From NCBI GenBank assembly GCA_027343695.1, contig DAHWKJ010000056.1:1-64000 (forward strand): 64,000 nt of DNA, written 5' to 3'. The notes under the pieces were generated by a model, which saw only the letters and a program-made list of their open reading frames with translations, had not been told where the DNA came from and ran no database searches. This DNA is from Sulfobacillus sp. (GTDB taxonomy: Bacteria; Bacillota; Sulfobacillia; Sulfobacillales; Sulfobacillaceae). The translations under genes were made by a program, and so were the position numbers. Below, piece by piece: positions 37,157-54,225 of the stretch (positions are counted from its first letter, which is position 1; every line of letters begins with the position of its first letter).

Positions 37157-38407
37157 ATGAGTTTACCACTAGAGGGCATCAAGATTCTTGACTTTACAGG
37201 AGTGCAAGCGGGCCCTGCTTGCACCCAGCTATTAGCCTGGTTTGGTGCCGATGTGCTGAAAATTGAGCGGCCGGGCGTCGGTGATGTCACGCGCAATCAG
37301 TTGCGGGACATTCCCGATGCCGACGCGTTATATTTTACAACACTGAATAGCAACAAAAAATCGCTGGAGTTGGACACCAAGACTCCTCAGGGTAAAGAAA
37401 TCCTGGAAAAGCTGATTCGGGAAGCGGACGTAATGGTCGAAAACTTTGCGCCGGGGGCATTGGACCGGATGGGGTTTAGTTGGGAACGGATTCAGGAACT
37501 GAATCCCCGGATCATCTTCGGATCGGTTAAGGGATTCGGCGAAAACTCCAGATATTCGGACCTCAAGGTGTACGAGAACGTCGCGCAATGTGCCGGCGGC
37601 GCCGCGTCGACCACGGGGTTTTGGGATGGCCCGCCCACCATTAGTGGCGGTGCCTTAGGTGATAGCAACAGCGGGATGCACTTGGCCATTGGCATTCTGA
37701 CCGCATTGATCGGGCGGGAAAAGACCGGGAAGGGCCAAAAGGTAAGTGTTGCCATGCAAGACGCCGTGCTGAACCTCTGTCGGGTTAAACTCCGCGACCA
37801 ACAGCGACTCGACCGTTTAGGGTACCTCGAAGAATATCCGCAATACCCGAACGGTACGTTTGGCGAGGCCGTACCTCGGGGTGGCAACGCTGGAGGCGGT
37901 GGCCAACCCGGTTGGGTTTTGAAATGTAAAGGTTGGGAAACCGATCCGGACGCCTATATTTACTTTACGTTGCAAGAGCAGAATTGGGCCCGCACCTGTC
38001 AAGCCATTGGAAAACCTGAGTGGATTGATGACCCGGCGTATAAGACCACAAAAGCGCGGCAGACGCATATTTTTGACATCTTTGCAGATATTGAGAAGTG
38101 GTTGGCCGATAAGACCAAGTATGAAGCGGTGGACATTTTACGGAAGTTTGATGTCCCTTGTGCCCCGGTGATGAACATGAAGGAAATTGAAGAAGATCCG
38201 GATTTGCGGGCCAGTGGGAGTATTGTCGAAGTCGAGCACAAAACTCGCGGGCGGTATCTGACCGTGGGAAGTCCGATTAAATTCTCGGGATTTAAGCCGG
38301 AGATTGTGGGATCGCCGCTGCTCGGCGAGCACACTGACGAAGTTTTGGCTGGTCTTGGGTATAGTGCTGATCAGATTGCTGCCTTACATGAGGCAAAGGT
38401 CGTTTAG
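37157..38407 (+). CDS. frc: Formyl-CoA:oxalate CoA-transferase
   Basis: A 416-residue class III CoA-transferase with strong likeness to Frc of Oxalobacter and YfdW of E. coli. [20 protein letters not shown] opens the protein. [16 protein letters not shown] carries the catalytic Asp (D169 region of Frc). [16 protein letters not shown] matches the flexible tetraglycine loop, with four consecutive Gly, specific to Frc. It moves CoA from formyl-CoA to oxalate, giving oxalyl-CoA and free formate. Followed by a terminator-like hairpin and then oxc. Confidence 0.95.
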
Positions 38408-38412
38408 TCCGA

Positions 38413-38455
38413 AGAAGTCTCACAGGACCGGTCATTCTTGTGAGACTTCTGAATT
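38413..38455 (+). terminator. Rho-independent-type hairpin between frc and oxc
   Basis: Arms AGAAGTCTCACA (38413-38424) and TGTGAGACTTCT (38439-38450) pair perfectly over 12 bp and are followed by GAATTTT. It may attenuate rather than end transcription, since oxc needs expression too. Confidence 0.7.
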
Positions 38456-38557
38456 TTAGTAGAGGCTTGGTAGGGACCGGGTATGTTGAGCGATGATAAG
38501 TGTAAAAACTTTACGACGCGTGGTTAGGGTGATTAGCAAAGGTTGGGAGGGGTACTG

Positions 38558-40240
38558 ATGGATTCGGTAGCAATGACGGACGGATTCCATATTGTCGTCG
38601 ATGCGTTCAAACTGAACGGTATTGATACGATATATGGGGTGGCGGGCATTCCCATCACAGATTTGTTGCGTTTGGCCCACGAAGAGGGGATTCGATACAT
38701 TGGATTTCGCCATGAACAAAGTGCGGCCAATGCGGCAGCGATTGCGGGATATTTGACCAAGAAGCCGGGTGTCTGTATGACGGTGTCTGGCCCCGGGTTC
38801 CTGAACGGGATGGTGGCACTGGCCAACGCGACCACCAACTGTTTTCCGATGATTCTAATTAGCGGGTCCAGTGACCGCGCGATCATCGACCTGGAACAAG
38901 GAGATTACGAAGAATTAGATCAGTTGAATGCAGCGAGGCCCTACGCGAAAGCCTCGTTCCGGGTCAACCGGCCGCAAGATATCGGAATTGGATTGGCACG
39001 TGCTATTCACGCCGCCGTATCGGGGCGGCCGGGTGGAGTATATCTCGACTTGCCGGCCGATGTGTTGGGATCCACGCTTGACGTCGAGACCGCGAAGAAG
39101 TCTCTGGTGAAGCCCGTCGATCCCGCGCCAAGTCAAATTCCATCCCCGGAATCGGTCAAGCGGGCGGTTGCGTTATTGTCCGAAGCCAAGCGGCCTCTGA
39201 TCATTCTTGGAAAAGGCGCGGCGTACGCGCAAGCGGACCAAGAAATCCGCACGTTTGTCGAGTCAACCGGGATCCCGTTTTTACCGATGTCGATGGCCAA
39301 GGGACTCCTTCCTGACAATCATCCACAATCCGCCGCGGCTGCCCGTTCGTATGCGATTGGGCAGGCAGACGTTGTGGTGCTGTTGGGTGCGCGCTTGAAT
39401 TGGCTACTATCTCATGGTAAGGGCCCGTTGTGGTCGGAAACCACCCAGTACGTACAAATTGATATCTCGCCGACCGAGATGGACAGCAATCGCCTGATTG
39501 CGGCTCCTGTTGTTGGCGACATCAAGTCCGCGGTATCGGCTATTTTGGCCGAGATCAAGCCGAATCAGATTCGGCCGAGTGCTGACTGGACTAACGGGAT
39601 TGCAGAACGAAAACAAAAGAATGTGCAACGCATGGCGGAACGTCTGAATGCGGATCCCAATCCGATGAATTTTTCGAGCGCCTTGCGCGTGGTGCGCGAT
39701 GCTCTCGCAGATCGGCCCGACATCTACGTGGTCAATGAAGGCGCCAATAGCCTCGACTTTGCCCGAAACATTATTGACATGAGTGAGCCGCGTAAGCGGT
39801 TGGACAGCGGCACCTGGGGCATTATGGGCATTGGCATGGGGTATGCCATCGGCGCTGCGGTCGAGAGCGGGAAACCCGTGGTTGCCATCGAAGGAGATAG
39901 TGCCTTTGGGTTTAGTGGAATGGAACTGGAAACCATCTGTCGATATCGCCTTCCGATCGTTATCGTGGTCTTGAACAATGGAGGTATTTATCGAGGAGAT
40001 CCGGCGGGTAGTAAGCCCTCTCCGACCGGGTTTGTGCATGACTCACGCTACGATAAGCTGATTGAAGCATTTGGTGGCAAGGGCTATCATGTGCAAACCA
40101 GCGCCAGCCTTGAGAAGGCCCTTAAAGAGGCTATCGAAGCGGGAACTCCGGCATTGATCAACTGTGTCATCGACCCAACCGCCGGGACTGAGAGTGGTCA
40201 TATCCAGAGTCTAAACCCGAAGAGTGCGTTGCAGAAATAA
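38558..40240 (+). CDS. oxc: Oxalyl-CoA decarboxylase
   Basis: A 560-residue thiamine-diphosphate enzyme, the length of Oxc. [14 protein letters not shown] and [14 protein letters not shown] give the N-terminal PYR domain with the catalytic Glu-equivalent and the Oxc-type H-E-Q-x-A-A. The C-terminal [19 protein letters not shown] is the GDx-N ThDP/Mg motif, and [10 protein letters not shown] follows. It decarboxylates oxalyl-CoA to formyl-CoA, which Frc uses. The ATG at 38558 is preferred, behind GGGAGGGG; the in-frame TTG at 38543 lies before the RBS. Confidence 0.95.
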
Positions 40241-40247
40241 GAGGAAA

Positions 40248-40275
40248 GAGGCCTCTCGACAAAAGGAGAGGCCTC
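40248..40275 (+). terminator. Hairpin after oxc
   Basis: GAGGCCTCTC (40248-40257) pairs with GAGAGGCCTC (40266-40275) around an 8-nt loop. The T-run is lacking, so it may stabilise the mRNA end or attenuate readthrough into the PAS gene. Confidence 0.55.
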
Positions 40276-40422
40276 ATCCCCAAAACCAGGTGTGCGTGCC
40301 ACAGCGGTGGTTTGGGGTGAGCCGATGGAGAAAAGACCGGAGATCGGGTCGGACTGATTTTGTGGCGAATCCCTTAATCAGGACGATGTCTAACCTACTG
40401 GAGCGAAAAGGAGACAACGTCG

Positions 40423-40863
40423 ATGAGCTTTGATGTCGAGCGATTTGCCCGGGTGTTGTTACACACCATGCCGGATGCGGTGATCTATGCAGATGCCAAA
40501 GGTATCATTCAATTTTGGAACGCTGGTGCAGAGCGTATTTTTGGATTCGGACCTTCTGAGGCGTTGGGGCAGTCGCTCGATATAATTATTCCGGAAAATC
40601 TTCAAAAACGTCACTGGGAAGGCTACGATAAGACTATGAGCACTGGTGAGAGTCGTTATGAGGCAGGGGCCTTGCTTGCAGTGCCTGCTATTCGTAAGGA
40701 TGGGACCAGGATCTCGGTGGAATTCACCATTCTACCGTTTCGCGAAGAAAGTGGAGAAATGGCGGGAATTGCGGCGGTGATGCGGGATGTTACGAAGCAA
40801 TTCGAAGAAATGCGGTCGCTTCGCAAAAAAGTGGCCCAGAGTCTTGCAGCGGAAACCCGGTAA
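40423..40863 (+). CDS. Stand-alone PAS-domain protein
   Basis: A 146-residue single PAS/PAC protein. PDAVIYADAKGIIQFWNAGA (residues about 17-36) and FGFGPSEALGQ are PAS motifs, and RISVEFTILPF...GIAAVMRDVT is the PAC end. There is no kinase, GGDEF or HTH output. The closing EEMRSLRKKVAQSL helix resembles the start of a signalling coiled coil. It lies between oxc and the formate dehydrogenase genes, so it may sense redox or a small ligand for this module. AAAGGAG precedes the ATG. Confidence 0.85.
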   Translation: MSFDVERFARVLLHTMPDAVIYADAKGIIQFWNAGAERIFGFGPSEALGQSLDIIIPENLQKRHWEGYDKTMSTGESRYEAGALLAVPAIRKDGTRISVEFTILPFREESGEMAGIAAVMRDVTKQFEEMRSLRKKVAQSLAAETR

Positions 40864-40895
40864 TCGGGTGACTGCATGGAAAGGGGGAGTTAGAA

Positions 40896-42797
40896 ATGGC
40901 TGTTGCGTATACGAAGAGCGCGCGAACGCGCTTAACCACCCCGCTCATACGAGAAGCGGGAGAACTACGAGTCGCGACGTGGGAGGAGGCGTTATCCCGG
41001 GCGGCGGAGTTGTTCGGCGCCGTCAAGTCCCAGTATGGCCCGAACGGGCTTGGCGTATTTAGCTGTTCGAAATCCACGAATGAGCTCAATTATTTGGCAT
41101 CAAAATTCTCACGGGTCGTTTTTGGCACGCATAATATCGACTCCTGTAACCGGACCTGACACGCCCCTTCAGTCGTGGGTCTCACGACTGTGTTTGGGAG
41201 TGGCGCGGGAACGAGTTCTTATGATGATTTTCATCACACGGCATTCATTTTGTTGGTAGGATCTAACGCGGCGGAAGCGCACCCGATTATTTTTCACCAC
41301 ATTATGAAAGGTGTTCACAATGGCGCTGAATTAGTGGTTGTGGATCCGCGTAAAACTCTAACCACCAAACGTGCTCATGAACATCTTCAGATCGCGGTCG
41401 GTTCAGACATTGCGCTCTTGAATGCGATGGCCCACGTCATTATCCGAGATGGGCTGTATCGAACAGACTTCATTGATAGGGCAACCGAGGGCTTTGCGGC
41501 GTTCGCCGAGAGCGTCAAGGCTTGGACACCTGAACGTGCGTCCGTCCCCACTGGAATATCGGCCGAACGCATTGAGTCGTTGGCGCGACGTTACGCGAAA
41601 GCACCTACGGCCATGATTGGTTGGACGTTAGGAATTACTGAGCACCACAATGCAGTGGATAACGTCTTGGCCCTCATAAATCTGTCCCTGTTATGCGGTA
41701 ATGTGGGAAGACCCGGGGCGGGTCTGAACCCACTACGCGGGCAGAACAACGTGCAGGGTGGGGGCGATATGGGTGCGCTACCGGGCCGCCTGCCTGGGTT
41801 TCAAGACGTGTTGGACCCGGAAGTGCGCAGCAAGTTTGAAGCGGCGTGGGGGGTACCGATTAGCGCCGAACCCGGTTGGGACCAAACGCAGATGTTCGAA
41901 GCCATCGAGAACGACAAGTTGCGTGGCCTCTATATTATTGGGGAGAATCCTATTCAATCGGAAGCTAACGCCGAGCATATGCGGCATTTGTTTAATAAGT
42001 TGGACGCCTTAGTGGTCCAGGATATCTTCTTAACCGCGACCGGGGAGATGGCGGACGTGGTACTGCCCGCCAATGTCTCCTTTGCCGAAAGCGATGGGAC
42101 CTATACCAATAGTGAACGACGCGTTCAGCGCGTACGCGCTGCGCGTAAAGCCCCGGGCCAAGCCCAGGATGATTTGTGGGTGGTTGCCTCATTAGCCCAG
42201 GCGATGGGCCATCCGTGGCCGGTGCAGGGAGCGGAAGCCGTCTTCGACGAAATGCGGAAGTTAACCACAAATTACCGGGGAATGACCTACGAACGATTGG
42301 AACAAGCGCAAGGAATGCAGTGGCCGGTACCCTATGAGGGACACCCGGGCAGTAAGGTCTTGCATGATCGATTGTGGGAAGCGACCGTTGAGAAAAAAGC
42401 ACCTTTTATCCCGGTAGATTGGTCGCCGCCATCAGAAATGCCAACCCCTGAGTTCCCGCTGTTGCTAACGACCGGACGCCGACTGGCATTCTTTAACACT
42501 GGAGTACAGTCCAACGTTTACGACCATCCGCATAAGATCGGGGAATGGATGGAAATGCACCGTGACGACGCCAAACCATTAGGAATTCGCGACGGTGAAA
42601 CTGTGGCTGTGGTCTCTCGCCGAGGACGCGTAGAAGTGCCGGTACATTATTCGGATGCGGTGATGCCGGGGACCGTATTTATGACCCTACATTTTCCAGA
42701 ACACGTCATGACGAATAATTTGACGATTGATGCGACGGATCCGAAGTCCGGCACCGCCGAGTTTAAGGCCGCTGCGGTACGAATTGAGCGACTGTGA
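40896..42797 (+). CDS. Formate dehydrogenase catalytic (Mo/W-bisPGD) subunit with in-frame UGA selenocysteine
   Basis: Translation continues through TGA 41157-41159 in the same frame to give 633 residues with Sec88. The context NRT-U-HAPSVVGL aligns with the Sec-His active site of E. coli FdhF (R-V-U-H-G-P-S-V). After it, AFILLVGSNAAEAHPI, LLCGNVGRPGAGLNPLRGQNNVQG and the C-terminal DGETVAVVSRRGRVEVPV domain follow the FDH order. The protein lacks the N-terminal [4Fe-4S] and ferredoxin-like domains; these are in 44527-45366. RBS AAAGGGGG. Confidence 0.88.
41157..41190 (+). promoter_or_regulatory. SECIS-like element of the formate dehydrogenase mRNA
   Basis: After the UGA, an 8-bp perfect stem CAGTCGTG (41170-41177) / CACGACTG (41183-41190) closes the 5-nt loop GGTCT. 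Counting U of UGA as 1, the loop GGU is at 22-24, the same spacing as the G23-U24 loop contacts of the E. coli fdhF SECIS recognised by SelB. The bulged U17 of E. coli is paired here. Confidence 0.8.
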
Positions 42798-42841
42798 ACC
42801 CGGCCCAAATCTGTATTAATGACTAGAGAAGAGGTGGATGG

Positions 42842-43288
42842 ATGGACAGCGAGAACGGGACAGTCTCTGACGCCGTGAAGGTCCTCCTGCATGATATACC
42901 TCGCGAGCGGGGTCAATTGTTACCCGCTCTGTGGAGAGTTGTGGAGCAATATCGGGAGATTACGCCTGAACTAATTGGGGCGGTGTCAGAAAGTCTTAAT
43001 ATTCCCTATGCCGAAGTCTATGGGGTGGCGTCCTTTTATTCCTTATTTGATAATCCCGGAGGAAAAATGCCGGTTTACGTCTGTACCGATGTGATGTGCA
43101 TGTTGCAGGGGTCGGAGAACTTAAAGCATGCGGCCGAGAGTGCGGCGGAGAATGGGCCCGTCACAATTCGAGAATCGGCTTGCTTGGGTCAGTGCGACTA
43201 CGCCCCGGCCGCATGGAGTGGGGCTCGTGTGCTGCGCCGGGCAACGCCGGAAGAAATTGTTTCTGTGGTGAAGGAGGCGGGCCAGTGA
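42842..43288 (+). CDS. NuoE-like [2Fe-2S] subunit of NAD-dependent formate dehydrogenase
   Basis: A 148-residue thioredoxin-fold ferredoxin. The ligands are CTDVMC and, later, CLGQC, the C-x4-C...C-x3-C set of the 24-kDa/NuoE family. The preceding EVYGVASFYSLF is the family's other hallmark. It passes electrons between the FMN subunit and the catalytic iron-sulfur chain. The stop overlaps the GTG start of the NuoF-like gene. It is separated from the catalytic subunit by about 45 bp with GAAGAGGTGG before the ATG. Confidence 0.93.
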   Translation: MDSENGTVSDAVKVLLHDIPRERGQLLPALWRVVEQYREITPELIGAVSESLNIPYAEVYGVASFYSLFDNPGGKMPVYVCTDVMCMLQGSENLKHAAESAAENGPVTIRESACLGQCDYAPAAWSGARVLRRATPEEIVSVVKEAGQ

Positions 43289-44502
43289 ATCAGGTGCGTC
43301 GATTATTGCCTGACTTTGGCACCACATCCTCTCCGACCTCCGTTGAACGTTTGAAGGAACGCGGATTTGCAGAGGCCTTGCGAAAGGTCTTTGCGATGAG
43401 CGGCGAGGACATCATTAGCCAAATCACGGAAAGTGGGATTAAGGGCCGAGGTGGCGCCGCCTTCCCTACCGGTCTTAAGTGGTCGAGTGTCTATAAAGCG
43501 CCGGGCGAGACCAAGTATGTCGTCATGAACGCCGATGAAAGCGAATTAGGCACTTTTAAAGACCGCGTGTTACTGGAAGAAGATCCCCTAGGAGCATTAG
43601 TGGGGGTGTTAATTGCGGCTCATGCGGTGGGGGCCAAAAAAGCATTTTGCTACATTCGTGGCGAGTATCGCGACGTGGAAAATCGGATGGCTGAGGCTTT
43701 GGATACTTTACGGTCTCAGGGCTGGGTGGGACCGGACCGGGTGGACGTGCAAATTCGCCGTGGAGCCGGCGCTTACATCGCGGGGGAAGAGACCGCATTG
43801 TTCAACAGTATTGAGGGCAAGCGACCGGAACCTCGAGTCAAACCGCCATTCCCGACTATTAAAGGATTATGGGCATCTCCTACGCTCATCCAAAATGTCG
43901 AGACCCTAGCCAACGTTGCGGTGTTGTTCGCCCATGATACCGAATGGTTCAAGCAGTACGGTACGAAAGAAACGATAGGAACCAAGTTGGTCGCGATAAG
44001 TGGCCACGTCAAACAACCTGGAGTTTACGAAGTTCCGTTTGGGATGTCCTTGACGGACATTTTGAATGCACCGGACTTGGGAGGCGGAATTGCGGGCAGT
44101 GGCCGTCTCGGCGCGATGCTCTTGGGTGGCGCAGCCGGAACCTTTCTAACTCCTGAGGAAATTGCGAAAAGCAGTTTAGATTATGCTTCCTTGGGTGCCG
44201 TAGGAGCCAACATCGGATCGGGTGCCGTGATGGTATTCGATGATACCGTCGATTTGGTAGGGGTTACTACGCGACTAGCACGATTTTTCGCCGAAGAGTC
44301 TTGTGGGCAATGCGTGCCGTGCCGGGTGGGGACGCAACGAGTGGTCGAACTAATTGAAAACGATGGAATCCAATCCAGACCCCAGGACTTGCGGGAGTTA
44401 GGATTAGCCATGCGCGATGCCTCAATTTGTGGGCTCGGGCAGACGGCACCCTTGGCGCTCTTGTCCCTGTTGGACCGGCCCGAGTTGAGGCAACATGCGT
44501 AA
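43285..44502 (+). CDS. NuoF-like NAD/FMN-binding subunit of formate dehydrogenase
   Basis: A 405-residue NuoF homologue. GRGGAAFPTGLKW is the NAD/FMN loop, NADESELGTFKDR follows, and RRGAGAYIAGEETAL is the FMN motif. The C-terminal [4Fe-4S] motif is SCGQCVPCRVGT with the fourth Cys in ICGLG. It reduces NAD+ with electrons from formate oxidation. GTG 43285 is the true start, in GTGA overlap with the NuoE-like stop and behind AAGGAGG; the open frame extends upstream but overlaps the previous gene. Confidence 0.93.
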   Translation: MNQVRRLLPDFGTTSSPTSVERLKERGFAEALRKVFAMSGEDIISQITESGIKGRGGAAFPTGLKWSSVYKAPGETKYVVMNADESELGTFKDRVLLEEDPLGALVGVLIAAHAVGAKKAFCYIRGEYRDVENRMAEALDTLRSQGWVGPDRVDVQIRRGAGAYIAGEETALFNSIEGKRPEPRVKPPFPTIKGLWASPTLIQNVETLANVAVLFAHDTEWFKQYGTKETIGTKLVAISGHVKQPGVYEVPFGMSLTDILNAPDLGGGIAGSGRLGAMLLGGAAGTFLTPEEIAKSSLDYASLGAVGANIGSGAVMVFDDTVDLVGVTTRLARFFAEESCGQCVPCRVGTQRVVELIENDGIQSRPQDLRELGLAMRDASICGLGQTAPLALLSLLDRPELRQHA

Positions 44503-44526
44503 TCGAGAAAGGGGAGCGAATTCAAC

Positions 44527-45366
44527 ATGGAAAATTCCGTAACCCTCGCGATTGACGGACAGTCGATCACGGTGGCAGAAGGAACAACCTTGCGCGCAGC
44601 GTGTGATGTCGCTCATCATACGGTGCCGACGCTCTGTTGGCATGAAAACCTTACACCCGCCAATGCTTGTCGGGCCTGTGTGGTGGAGGTTAAAGGATCA
44701 CGAACGCTGGTGGCGTCCTGCTCGCGGATTGCTGAGAACGGCATGGAGGTCCAGACTGGCAGTGAGCGTGTGATGAACGCGAGGAAAGTGGTCGCGGAGC
44801 TGTTATTGTCCACCTCGGATAGCAATTTGGCGCCCGACCTTATCGCCTTAGCCCAAAATTCCGGAGCTCAAGCGGACCGCTTTGCGGGTGGAGCGACATG
44901 GGCACAGCCGGCACTTGAGGACAACAACCTTTATGTCCGGGACCTGTCAAAATGCATCTTGTGCTATCGATGCGTGGAGGCGTGCGGAGACGACGCCCAG
45001 AATACCTTTGCCATTGCGGTCGCGGGACGTGGATTTAATGCGCATATTGACGCAGGATTCGGTCGCGACCTACCAGAGTCCGACTGTGTCTATTGTGGTA
45101 ACTGTGTTGCGGTGTGCCCGACTGGTGCGCTTATTGGCAAAAAGGAGTGGGATTTGCGCCAGACGGGTCAATGGGATGAGAGTCAGATTACCCAGACGGA
45201 AACGATTTGCTCGTTCTGTGGGGTCGGATGTGAATTGAACCTTCACGTCATGGACAATCAGATCATTAAAGTGACATCTCCGATGGATCATCCGGTGACC
45301 CACGGAATGTTGTGTGTTAAGGGACGCTACGGCTACGAATTTGCGCAGAGTGAGGAGCAGTCTTAA
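44527..45366 (+). CDS. Detached N-terminal iron-sulfur half of the formate dehydrogenase alpha subunit (NuoG-N/FdhA-N)
   Basis: A 279-residue protein with, in order: an N-terminal [2Fe-2S] domain (Cys in PTLCWHE, ACRAC and VASC), an 8Fe ferredoxin region (CILCYRCVEAC and CVYCGNCVAVCPTGAL), then ICSFCGVGCELNLHV and GMLCVKGRYGYEF, the bis-PGD enzyme's own [4Fe-4S] site. In ordinary FdhA this last segment continues directly into the sequence that begins the catalytic gene at 40896. The alpha subunit is therefore split inside the molybdopterin domain and encoded out of order. Confidence 0.9.
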   Translation: MENSVTLAIDGQSITVAEGTTLRAACDVAHHTVPTLCWHENLTPANACRACVVEVKGSRTLVASCSRIAENGMEVQTGSERVMNARKVVAELLLSTSDSNLAPDLIALAQNSGAQADRFAGGATWAQPALEDNNLYVRDLSKCILCYRCVEACGDDAQNTFAIAVAGRGFNAHIDAGFGRDLPESDCVYCGNCVAVCPTGALIGKKEWDLRQTGQWDESQITQTETICSFCGVGCELNLHVMDNQIIKVTSPMDHPVTHGMLCVKGRYGYEFAQSEEQS

Positions 45367-45575
45367 GACGTTGGTGCCGTGCATGCAAGAAGGGACAAAT
45401 CCTGGAACTCGTCGTGCCCTACCTGTGTAAGTCGAAGGGGCACGGCGTGCAAGGCCTCGTGAATGTGTCGAAGAGTCCACTGGATTGAGGTCAGTTGCTC
45501 TTCTTTGTGGGGTGGGCAGGACAGGATATAAGAGGAAAATCTTAGGCGTAGGAAACAATTTGAGGAGGCGATGTT

Positions 45576-45821
45576 TTGCAGATTATTGTCTATTCACAAC
45601 CTGGCTGAAACCCTTGTGATACTGAGAAAGCGTGGCTTTCTCACGAAGGGATCCCGTTTGAAGAGCGAAACATCCGACAGAATCCTCGTTGGGTGGAGGA
45701 ATTGGTCGCGTTGGGCTCACAATCTACACCGACCACGGTGGTAGAGAATGGTGGGGAACGAACAATTGTGATCGGCTTTGACCGGGCTAAGCTACAACAG
45801 GCGATTCAAGCCAAGGCATAG
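45576..45821 (+). CDS. Glutaredoxin-like selenoprotein (UxxC)
   Basis: Starting at TTG 45576, 7 bp after GAGGAGG, the frame reads MQIIVYSQPG-U-NPCDTEKAWLSHEGIPFEERNI and continues to TAG at 45819-45821, giving 81 residues with Sec11. The TGA at 45606-45608 replaces the first Cys of the glutaredoxin C-x-x-C motif. The later STPTTVVENG has the cis-Pro TPT turn, and GFDRAKL the usual end. It is missed by standard gene finding because of the stop. It lies just downstream of the selenoprotein formate dehydrogenase genes. Confidence 0.82.
45606..45650 (+). promoter_or_regulatory. SECIS-like element of the glutaredoxin mRNA
   Basis: The upper stem TGAGAAAG (45623-45630) / CTTTCTCA (45636-45643) closes the 5-nt loop CGTGG. 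A lower stem CCCTT (45611-45615) / AAGGG (45646-45650) extends it across an internal loop. The apical loop lies 26-30 nt from the UGA, a little further than in the formate dehydrogenase. Confidence 0.7.
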
Positions 45822-45848: not shown

Positions 45849-46322
45849 ATGGGCCCTGGCTGCCGCCGATGGGAATTTTGTGACATCCCAGAGATTGCGC
45901 AACTGATGAGCGTCCATGCTTTGTGGCAGCATTATGGGCTGGATCGGGCGACTGCCGAAACCCGGCTCCACCAATTGTGGCGGGAAGATGAGTCGGGGTT
46001 CGTATGGGAACCGGAGCCGGGGAAGATCCTCGGCTTCGTTCTATTTAATCGTAGTAGTTTTGGTGGCAGCGGGTATGTGCGGTGGGTTGGCGTCGCCGCA
46101 GGAGCGACCGGGCTGGGGATTGGTCCGCGGCTGCTCCAGTGTGTGGAGCATGACCTCCGTCAAAATAGTGTCTTTCGGCTCCTCTTACTCTGCACTGCGT
46201 GGAATCATGGGGCTCGCCGGTTTTACGAACGGATGGGATTTTCTGAAATTGGGCGGTTGCCGGATTGGGTGCTGAAGGGGACCACTGAGGTGCTGTATGC
46301 GAAACATCTCGACTCCCCGTGA
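45849..46322 (+). CDS. GNAT-family N-acetyltransferase
   Basis: A 157-residue GNAT protein. The acetyl-CoA loop is in VAAGATGLGIGPRLLQ, matching Q/R-x-x-G-x-G/A loosely, and the C-terminal half has AWNHGARRFYERMGFSEIG, the usual motif B with the general Tyr. The substrate is not indicated. It lies 27 bp after the selenoprotein gene with GAAGGGGG before the ATG and may share its transcript. Confidence 0.85.
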   Translation: MGPGCRRWEFCDIPEIAQLMSVHALWQHYGLDRATAETRLHQLWREDESGFVWEPEPGKILGFVLFNRSSFGGSGYVRWVGVAAGATGLGIGPRLLQCVEHDLRQNSVFRLLLLCTAWNHGARRFYERMGFSEIGRLPDWVLKGTTEVLYAKHLDSP

Positions 46323-52103: not shown

Positions 52104-53300
52104 ATGGAATCTTCGTTACAAGGCAGGAAGTTCTGGTCCGATAATCTCGTTTTGGGCATTGCTACGCTGCTGGCAGGCCTATTCAATATGCTCTATGCGG
52201 TGGTCTTGGCACACACCTTAGGTCCAAGAGATTATGGTCGGATTGCGACGTTGAATAACCTTGTGGGTTTGTTTTTGTTGCCGTTGCCCTTAATTGGGCT
52301 TGTGGCCATTCGGCTCGGGAAGCGGGTCCAGCGTCGGGGACTGGGCTACCTCGTAGTTGGTGCCGGTCTTGGCGTATTTATCTTGAGTGTGCTATGGAGC
52401 GGTGCCTTAGGGCGGATTTTTCATCTATCCCAGGCTCTGATCGTCTTGTACGCGGTCAGCGTGGTTCCCAATTTCGGCTATGCCCTTTATATCGGATTTT
52501 TAGAACGGGCCCGTCGTTACCTCGTGGTGGGTGCTCTATTAGCGGTATCTAGTGGGCTGGGAGTGGGCGTCGTGGTCATTGCTGTCACCTTGGGACACCA
52601 TCATCCCTTATGGTGGGCAGGAGTCTTACAAGGCGGCTTGGTGGGGGCGATGTGGCTTTTAGCGGCGAGCCAGAGCCGGCACCTACCCGATGTAAAACCG
52701 ACGCCGTTGGCTCCTCGAATCCTCGTGACGACGATAGGGATTGGCACGCTTCAAGCACTATGGGGAATGAGCGATTCGCTTTTGGCCAAGGCGCATCTAT
52801 CTACCTTCCGCGCCGGGCTTTATACCGGGATCGCCACCATTGGCCAAGCCTTGCCGTTTATCGTGTCGAGTGTAGCGATTGTCATGTTGACGGCTATTTT
52901 GGATGATCCGGGGCATCCGAGGCGCTACTTATTTCGAAGCCTCGCGCTTACCGGGGGGTTGGGAGCCGGGTTCCTTATCATCCTTTATGGGCGACCCGGT
53001 TTGGTGGTAAAGCTATTCTTAGGCGTTCACTTCCTATCGATTGCGACGTTGCTCTCCCAATACGGAGTTGCAATGGTCGCGCTATCCTTGGTGATTGTCC
53101 TCACGACATTTGGGGTTGCCGTGGGCGACTGGTGGTCGGTAATTCCGGCGGCAGGAGGGACACTGCTTTGGATCATTTGGATGTTGGGCAGTACCCGGAT
53201 TGAATCGTTGGTGCATAGGACTTTATGGTCGATGCTCTTGACGTTGGGAGGAACTTTGGTGACCAAGATGCTCTCACGGCATCGTATAGATCATTCCTGA
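52104..53300 (+). CDS. Polysaccharide flippase-like multi-span membrane protein
   Basis: A 398-residue protein with about twelve hydrophobic segments. The opening FWSDNLVLGIATLLAGLFNMLYAVVLAHTLGPRDYGRIA resembles the first helices and the L-G-x-x-x-Y-G loop of MATE/Wzx-type oligosaccharide flippases, though at 398 residues it is a little short. The substrate would be a lipid-linked glycan. There are no glycosyltransferases nearby. The ATG at 52104 follows a weak GAGGTG. Confidence 0.7.
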   Translation: MESSLQGRKFWSDNLVLGIATLLAGLFNMLYAVVLAHTLGPRDYGRIATLNNLVGLFLLPLPLIGLVAIRLGKRVQRRGLGYLVVGAGLGVFILSVLWSGALGRIFHLSQALIVLYAVSVVPNFGYALYIGFLERARRYLVVGALLAVSSGLGVGVVVIAVTLGHHHPLWWAGVLQGGLVGAMWLLAASQSRHLPDVKPTPLAPRILVTTIGIGTLQALWGMSDSLLAKAHLSTFRAGLYTGIATIGQALPFIVSSVAIVMLTAILDDPGHPRRYLFRSLALTGGLGAGFLIILYGRPGLVVKLFLGVHFLSIATLLSQYGVAMVALSLVIVLTTFGVAVGDWWSVIPAAGGTLLWIIWMLGSTRIESLVHRTLWSMLLTLGGTLVTKMLSRHRIDHS

Positions 53301-53415
53301 ACTCGCCAGGTCGCAATGGGCGGAGGATATCCGTCTCAAAGCAGTACTGGGATCGCGGATGGCGTATCCTAAGTGTTCGTTACTGTGGTTCAATGGAGAC
53401 GGAGGCGAAATATTA

Positions 53416-54225
53416 GTGAAACCTTTTATAAAATGGGCAGGGGGCAAATATCGACTGGTTTCGCGAATCCAAGCCCTCTTACCCCATGGCCATCGCTTGG
53501 TAGAACCTTTTGTGGGGTCCGCAGCGGTATGGCTCAATACCACCTATTCGGCGGCCTTACTAGCCGACGCAAACTTAGATCTAATAACCCTGTACCGTAC
53601 GCTCCAACGTCACGGAGAAGGGTTTATTGATTTCTGTAAAGAATTCTTTGTCCCGGAAAACAATACGCCGGAGCGCTACTACGCTTTGCGCGAGCGATTT
53701 AATACGAGCCAAGATTCTTGGGAAAAATCCGCTCTATTCTTATATCTAAACCGGCATGGATACAATGGGCTCTGTCGCTACAATGCGGGCGGTGGATTTA
53801 ACGTTCCGTTCGGTCGTTATCGGATCCCTTACTTCCCTCAGAGAGAAATGGACTGTTTTTTCCAAAGGTCTCAAACGGCTACCTTTATACATCGAGATTT
53901 TCGCGCAGTGATGGCGAATCTAGAGCCGGGCGACGTGGTGTATTGCGATCCGCCCTATGTCCCGCTCTCGGCGACCGCTAATTTCACCGATTACGCCGCC
54001 GGAGGGTTTGGGCAGGGAGACCAAGACGATTTGGTGCAAATGGCTAGGGATCTGGGCGCCCGAGGAATTCCGGTGCTGATTTCTAACCATGCTACCGAGG
54101 ATATCCGTCATGCCTATCAGGGCGCCCGGCTCGAATCCTTTGCGGTGCAGCGTTTTATAAGTCGTGACACCCAAAACCGCCATACGGCTGAAGAGGTATT
54201 AGCGCTGTTTGGGGGATCCGTATGA
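53416..54225 (+). CDS. DNA adenine N6-methyltransferase, D12 class (Dam/DpnM-like)
   Basis: A 269-residue methyltransferase. KWAGGKYRLV is the N-terminal SAM motif (residues about 6-15), and VEPFVGSAAVWLNT the F-x-G-x-x-V-region. The catalytic motif is YCDPPY at residues 176-181. LYLNRHGYNGLCRYNAGGGFNVPFG matches the L-N-R-x-G-[FY]-N-G-L-x-R-[YF]-N of the D12 family. GATC is the usual target, which is inference. No restriction partner is adjacent, so it looks orphan. GTG 53416 follows GGAGGCG. Confidence 0.92.
   Translation: MKPFIKWAGGKYRLVSRIQALLPHGHRLVEPFVGSAAVWLNTTYSAALLADANLDLITLYRTLQRHGEGFIDFCKEFFVPENNTPERYYALRERFNTSQDSWEKSALFLYLNRHGYNGLCRYNAGGGFNVPFGRYRIPYFPQREMDCFFQRSQTATFIHRDFRAVMANLEPGDVVYCDPPYVPLSATANFTDYAAGGFGQGDQDDLVQMARDLGARGIPVLISNHATEDIRHAYQGARLESFAVQRFISRDTQNRHTAEEVLALFGGSV

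Follow-up and report, generated by a model that had tools for sequence, protein, structure and literature searches.

An in-frame UGA as a probable selenocysteine codon in a divergent UxxC glutaredoxin of Sulfobacillus

Does the TGA that interrupts a very short reading frame in Sulfobacillus sp. mark a broken gene, or does it encode selenocysteine (Sec)? The frame occupies positions 45576-45821 of the window, by which we mean the whole 64,000-nucleotide stretch of DNA that was analysed; all features given here lie on its forward (+) strand. Reading the sequence, we found a Shine-Dalgarno element (GAGGAGG, 45562-45568) separated by a 7-nt spacer from a TTG start codon, and SD-like purine runs precede the start codon in most relatives too. 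Ten codons in all lead up to the TGA (45606-45608), which is followed by 70 sense codons and a TAG stop (45819-45821). With the TGA read as Sec, the 81-amino acid product is LQIIVYSQPGUNPCDTEKAWLSHEGIPFEERNIRQNPRWVEELVALGSQSTPTTVVENGGERTIVIGFDRAKLQQAIQAKA. When Cys was substituted for Sec, this protein matched the glutaredoxin family PF00462 with 37.1 bits against a cut-off of 22.9 (E 3.6e-9). A sequence-only reading of this DNA had proposed that decoding the TGA as Sec joins the Shine-Dalgarno element, the TTG start and a glutaredoxin fold into one gene, and the domain match, together with matches in 33 of 34 genomes of the family, bears this out. The frame is short and interrupted, and ordinary gene annotation would therefore probably miss or truncate it.

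All the features of a glutaredoxin domain were present in the translated frame, namely a predicted Trx/Grx fold, a UxxC motif and a cis-proline. Sec11 would be the attacking residue of the UNPC active site and Cys14 (45615-45617) the resolving cysteine. Residues 51-53 (45726-45734) form a Thr-cisPro-Thr loop, as had been recognized earlier from the letters, and T51 and P52 are invariant and T53 nearly so in an alignment of 26 members. The other invariant positions of this alignment are Y6, G10, U/C11, C14, A19, W20, L21, E29, G47, G67 and F68, although more distant Cys forms, L040 among them, do not keep A19 and W20.

Most of the strong matches in the family genomes contain exactly one TGA, and a search of 42 genomes across the order gave the same pattern of a single internal TGA. 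At codon 11, TGA was found in 32 loci, the window included, and TGC or TGT in 10, with Cys14 always following; the TGA-bearing loci are spread over two families of the order. The placement of Sec at the first active-site cysteine position thus holds, since homologues L004, L009, L011, L013, L017 and L088 carry Cys opposite the TGA, and both the alignment across the UGA and the reading frame itself are kept in related strains. A general reassignment of UGA was considered and rejected, as the neighbouring GNAT gene (45849-46322) and the Cys homologues L009 and L011 all stop at TGA. When codons 25-58 of the window gene were compared with those of 12 Sec relatives, differences amounted to 33, 16 and 66% at codon positions 1, 2 and 3, respectively, which indicates that the frame downstream of the TGA is under purifying selection, as would be expected of a translated frame. 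A single-protein scan of the genome contigs gave no match, and an alignment-based scan recovered the Cys forms because its pattern requires a Cys codon. A plasmid search returned only remote (<45%) Cys glutaredoxins.

Six changes between the Sec and Cys labels were counted on a tree of the 81-amino acid proteins, at least three of them forced by well supported branches; this tree has few columns, is poorly resolved and can serve as a guide only, and as such it suggests repeated switches between Sec and Cys. Sec and Cys copies of the same redoxin occur together in two genomes, G001 (L004, L089) and G003 (L005, L088). The source assembly is 84% complete. Its nearest genome (G007), which is of the same genus and 100% complete, has no orthologue of the window gene and carries only a paralogue with a UPHC active site.

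If the UGA is decoded as Sec, a structured RNA element may be expected just downstream of it. A SECIS-like hairpin with the upper stem TGAGAAAGC-GTG-GCTTTCTCA and a GUG apex was predicted by folding and covariation at 45623-45643, 15-35 nt downstream of the TGA. The 50 nt from the UGA of the window sequence folded at -16.4 kcal/mol (z -3.0), and none of 200 shuffles was as stable. The sequence-only reading had described a two-part hairpin, and that structure does exist in the window; its upper stem proved to be conserved and covarying, but the lower stem that is predicted for the window sequence (CCCTT, 45611-45615, with AAGGG, 45646-45650; 45611-45650 overall) is not common to the relatives. 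The apex GCGUGGCU is invariant and flanked by the stem in all Sec relatives examined. Among 31 distinct Sec sequences, 92.3% of the cells of the 8-bp stem were paired; shuffles gave 84.4% and slid controls 34-63%. The covariation score of the stem was 0.238; shuffles scored 0.105, with none of 500 reaching the observed value, and slid controls did not exceed 0.08. Five combinations (AU, CG, UG, GC and UA) occur at the column pair 23-33. On the 3′ side (column 33) this pair uses the third, silent position of a Leu codon that is itself conserved, and the base there changes in step with the Lys, Ala, Met, Arg or Ile codon on the opposite side. Measured against synonymous recodings of the same protein, the 32 Sec forms retain a mean of 7.4 of the 8 pairs (z -2.2), whereas the 10 Cys forms retain 4.4 (z -0.4). 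These results support the view that the hairpin is an RNA element: Sec forms preserve it by compensatory and frequently synonymous substitutions, and it decays after the loss of Sec, a natural experiment in which the step from Sec to Cys is accompanied by decay of the hairpin. A SECIS-like hairpin also follows the UGA of the formate dehydrogenase (FDH) gene in the same window (CAGTCGTG-GGTCT-CACGACTG, 41170-41190); the two apices differ, GGUCU in the FDH loop as against GUG in the Sec-glutaredoxin, which is a point against the explanation favored here. Rfam reported no SECIS in the window, even at the clear FDH selenoprotein, and its silence therefore says little.

Cys forms exist, and one of the two genomes of the genus lacks the gene; it might be argued from this that the frame is a pseudogene, an ordinary Cys glutaredoxin spoilt by a sequencing error or a nonsense mutation. 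This reading is already refuted by the recurrence of the TGA at codon 11 in 32 loci of two families, and the in-frame purifying selection past the TGA and a covarying hairpin that follows the TGA forms only make it extremely improbable.

The genome also appears equipped for Sec insertion. The contig of the window also encodes SelB, ~15 kb past the window (G000:C35:78714-79814; 338.5 bits, over the cut-off), and a tRNA-Sec was detected with 72.9 bits. Genome G004, where neither SelB over the cut-off nor tRNA-Sec was found, has the orthologue in its Cys form. Genomes G003 and G015 carry TGA copies, yet no SelB over the cut-off and no tRNA-Sec were detected in them, a gap that is perhaps due to incompleteness or contamination. 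The claim that the glutaredoxin is a second selenoprotein gene, next to the FDH, is correct for the window but too low for the genome, which has at least six: the FDH, three glutaredoxin-type and two peroxiredoxin-type proteins. The FDH alpha subunit (40896-42797) has its UGA at 41157-41159 and matches TIGR01591 with 678.9 bits, over the cut-off. A second stand-alone Sec glutaredoxin (L002:1498-1731; G000:C28:56800-57033) has a UPHC active site and, with Cys for Sec, scores over the YruB and Uxx-star cut-offs. Two peroxiredoxin-family genes have an active-site TGA, one in L105 (TGA at 1624; G000:C16) and one in L107 (TGA at 1600; G000:C8), with the motifs TPGU and UPYC; a strong hairpin lies downstream of the UGA in the UPYC gene.

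The position of the gene invites the idea that it serves the FDH. Upstream of it in the window (37157-45366) are frc (formyl-CoA transferase), oxc (oxalyl-CoA decarboxylase), a PAS protein gene and an NAD-type Sec-FDH with NuoE/F/G-like subunits, which form an oxalate-to-formate-to-NADH catabolic cluster. A Sec-FDH adjoining NuoEFG-like genes has been reported for Sulfobacillus (PMC4378227). The glutaredoxin gene begins 210 bp past the FDH operon, and it could be envisioned to assist the NAD-type FDH and the oxalate pathway in redox chemistry or in metal/selenium handling. A tblastn search of the ~6-kb flanks of 20 Sec/Cys relatives recovered none of the FDH genes of the window and not its GNAT gene; the sole hits, in two of these relatives, were remote frc-like CoA-transferases (~25% identity). 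The neighbourhoods of the relatives consist of unrelated housekeeping genes. Shared neighbourhood was also rejected as a guide to what the protein does; the syntenic groups seen were all small (dnaX-tadA-like, folate-like and lipoate-like, named by eye from sequence), and they differ between genera. The Sec-glutaredoxin gene stands alone. With FDH linkage in none of the 20 relatives, a partnership with the FDH is very unlikely, and the earlier suggestion of a selenol system tied to the Sec-FDH is not supported.

To which known redoxins, then, is the protein related? An AlphaFold2 model has a glutaredoxin fold with a mean pLDDT of 97, and its best Foldseek matches in the PDB were cGrx1 (7c10) and Bacillus cereus BC3987 (3zij/3zit), followed by NrdH-redoxins. 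All 26 members match the YruB family TIGR02196 over their full length, and no other family gives a better E-value, yet the window protein scores 61.7 bits where the cut-off is 88.55, and it differs in an extended 55-65 loop and in its PG-U-x-(A/P)-C and EKAWLS signature. It shares the Grx fold and Sec in the first active-site position with the Uxx-star (seleno)proteins of NF041212, but it retains the resolving Cys and stays below that model as well (43.4 bits, cut-off 66). BC3987, a thioredoxin-like protein, is the best single-sequence PDB match (38% identity in the structural alignment), but it has Cys in its active site (YTQPDCPPC). By both Foldseek and profile comparison, the best match was cGrx1 of Clostridium (Alkaliphilus) oremlandii, likewise a small stand-alone UxxC glutaredoxin with a C-terminal GFDR-K motif. 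Identity to cGrx1 is only ~30%, and the UPHC tetrapeptide of cGrx1 is found in the paralogue L002 and not in the window protein, where, as in its relatives, the site is UNPC/UxAC. UxxC glutaredoxins with Sec are already recognised as one of the selenoprotein families of prokaryotes (PMC13188914; PMC1794560). On sequence comparison, the locus belongs to a divergent, order-wide subfamily of these proteins that lies below the NCBI curated cut-offs, and our literature search of open papers found no description of such a subfamily. It follows that a conserved selenoprotein subfamily can score under current curated models and seem a broken gene to ordinary callers.

The resemblance to NrdH-redoxins raises the possibility that the protein donates electrons to ribonucleotide reductase. 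NrdH structures are among the top fold matches (4fiw, 4hs1 and 1h75), an NrdH-like GF motif is located near the C-terminus, and the classical GSH-binding GG-D-D motif is absent, as is presumably the case in NrdH-redoxins. However, the 44.8 bits obtained with the NrdH model TIGR02194 are far under its cut-off of 85.75, YruB matches better, Sec takes the place of Cys, and no ribonucleotide reductase was recognised among the recurrent neighbours. An NrdH-like role is therefore unlikely.

Identification of the locus as a selenoprotein glutaredoxin is supported by the conserved TGA, the selection on the frame, the hairpin, the Sec machinery genes and the predicted fold, and we consider it very likely that it encodes a genuine 81-amino acid selenoprotein with a glutaredoxin fold, closest to YruB/NrdH-like redoxins, that is decoded by SelB with guidance from a hairpin and most likely recycled by thioredoxin reductase. 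Sec insertion in vivo, the reductant and the clients are inferred, and the mechanism that we propose is as follows. With the hairpin at 45623-45643 as a guide, SelB and Sec-tRNA would read the UGA at 45606-45608 as Sec. The selenolate of Sec11 would then attack client proteins at disulfide or peroxide-derived bonds, after which Cys14 would resolve the intermediate as a selenenylsulfide. Re-reduction would most likely be performed by thioredoxin reductase rather than by glutathione or bacillithiol. Glutathione (GSH) and bacillithiol were set aside as reductants when their synthesis markers were not found. PF04262 glutamate-cysteine ligase was absent from the 34 family genomes (G000-G033), PF04107 had no match over the cut-off and BshC was likewise missing from these genomes, and all three were detected in control genomes; BshA was below the cut-off in the source genome. 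The protein thus does not qualify as a bacilliredoxin by bacillithiol synthesis, nor as a GSH-dependent glutaredoxin by GSH synthesis, although GSH may be taken up or made by another route. Together with a thioredoxin reductase in the genome (386 bits), these absences favor that enzyme as the electron source. In contrast, cGrx1 has been described as GSH-reduced (PMC7642778). A "glutaredoxin" in a lineage that apparently makes neither glutathione nor bacillithiol turns the real reductant into a testable question.

Sec-peroxiredoxins are plausible clients. A sharper version of the Sec-glutaredoxin explanation, and one compatible with it, is that the main role of the protein is to serve Sec-peroxiredoxins or Sec-thiol oxidoreductases of the same cell as their dedicated reductant. 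The native selenoprotein cGrx1, with its U(or C)PXC motif, has been proposed as the reductant of the Sec-containing MsrA (cMsrA) (PMC7642778), and in Sulfobacillus thermotolerans expression of a Sec-peroxiredoxin, PrxU, has been reported (PMC7409299). The two peroxiredoxin-type frames with an active-site TGA (TPGU and UPYC) make it possible that electrons flow from the reductase through the Sec-redoxin to a Sec-peroxiredoxin. No linkage to peroxiredoxin genes was seen, however, and the pairing is one of coexistence only; we regard such a dedicated role as a real possibility that falls somewhat short of probable. Still more tentatively, one may speculate on an order-wide selenol network in a lineage without glutathione or bacillithiol, fed by thioredoxin reductase, in which Sec glutaredoxins (the window protein, the UPHC paralogue and a degenerate RluA fusion) pass electrons to Sec-peroxiredoxins and in which the hairpins have a GU-containing apex unlike the GGUCU of the fdhF type.

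With this fusion, the TGA glutaredoxins of the genome number three. In L003:937-1725 (G000:C72, about 52839-53627) and its relatives L080-L087, an RluA-type domain is fused to a U/CxxC glutaredoxin, an arrangement conserved in the family; the glutaredoxin in L003 is the C-terminal domain of a 263-amino acid frame. The pseudouridine synthase domain of L003 scores just over the cut-off for PF00849 (27.3 bits) and under that for TIGR00005 (42.3 bits). A literature search found no description of an RluA-glutaredoxin fusion. In nine of the nine family members examined, R, M, E, A or H stands in place of the Asp of the HRLD motif, which we take to be the RluA motif holding the catalytic Asp. The degenerate fusion is probably a new selenoprotein architecture. 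Five of its members have the TGA and a CGAAAG...CUUUCG-type hairpin, and the other four have TGC and have lost the hairpin.
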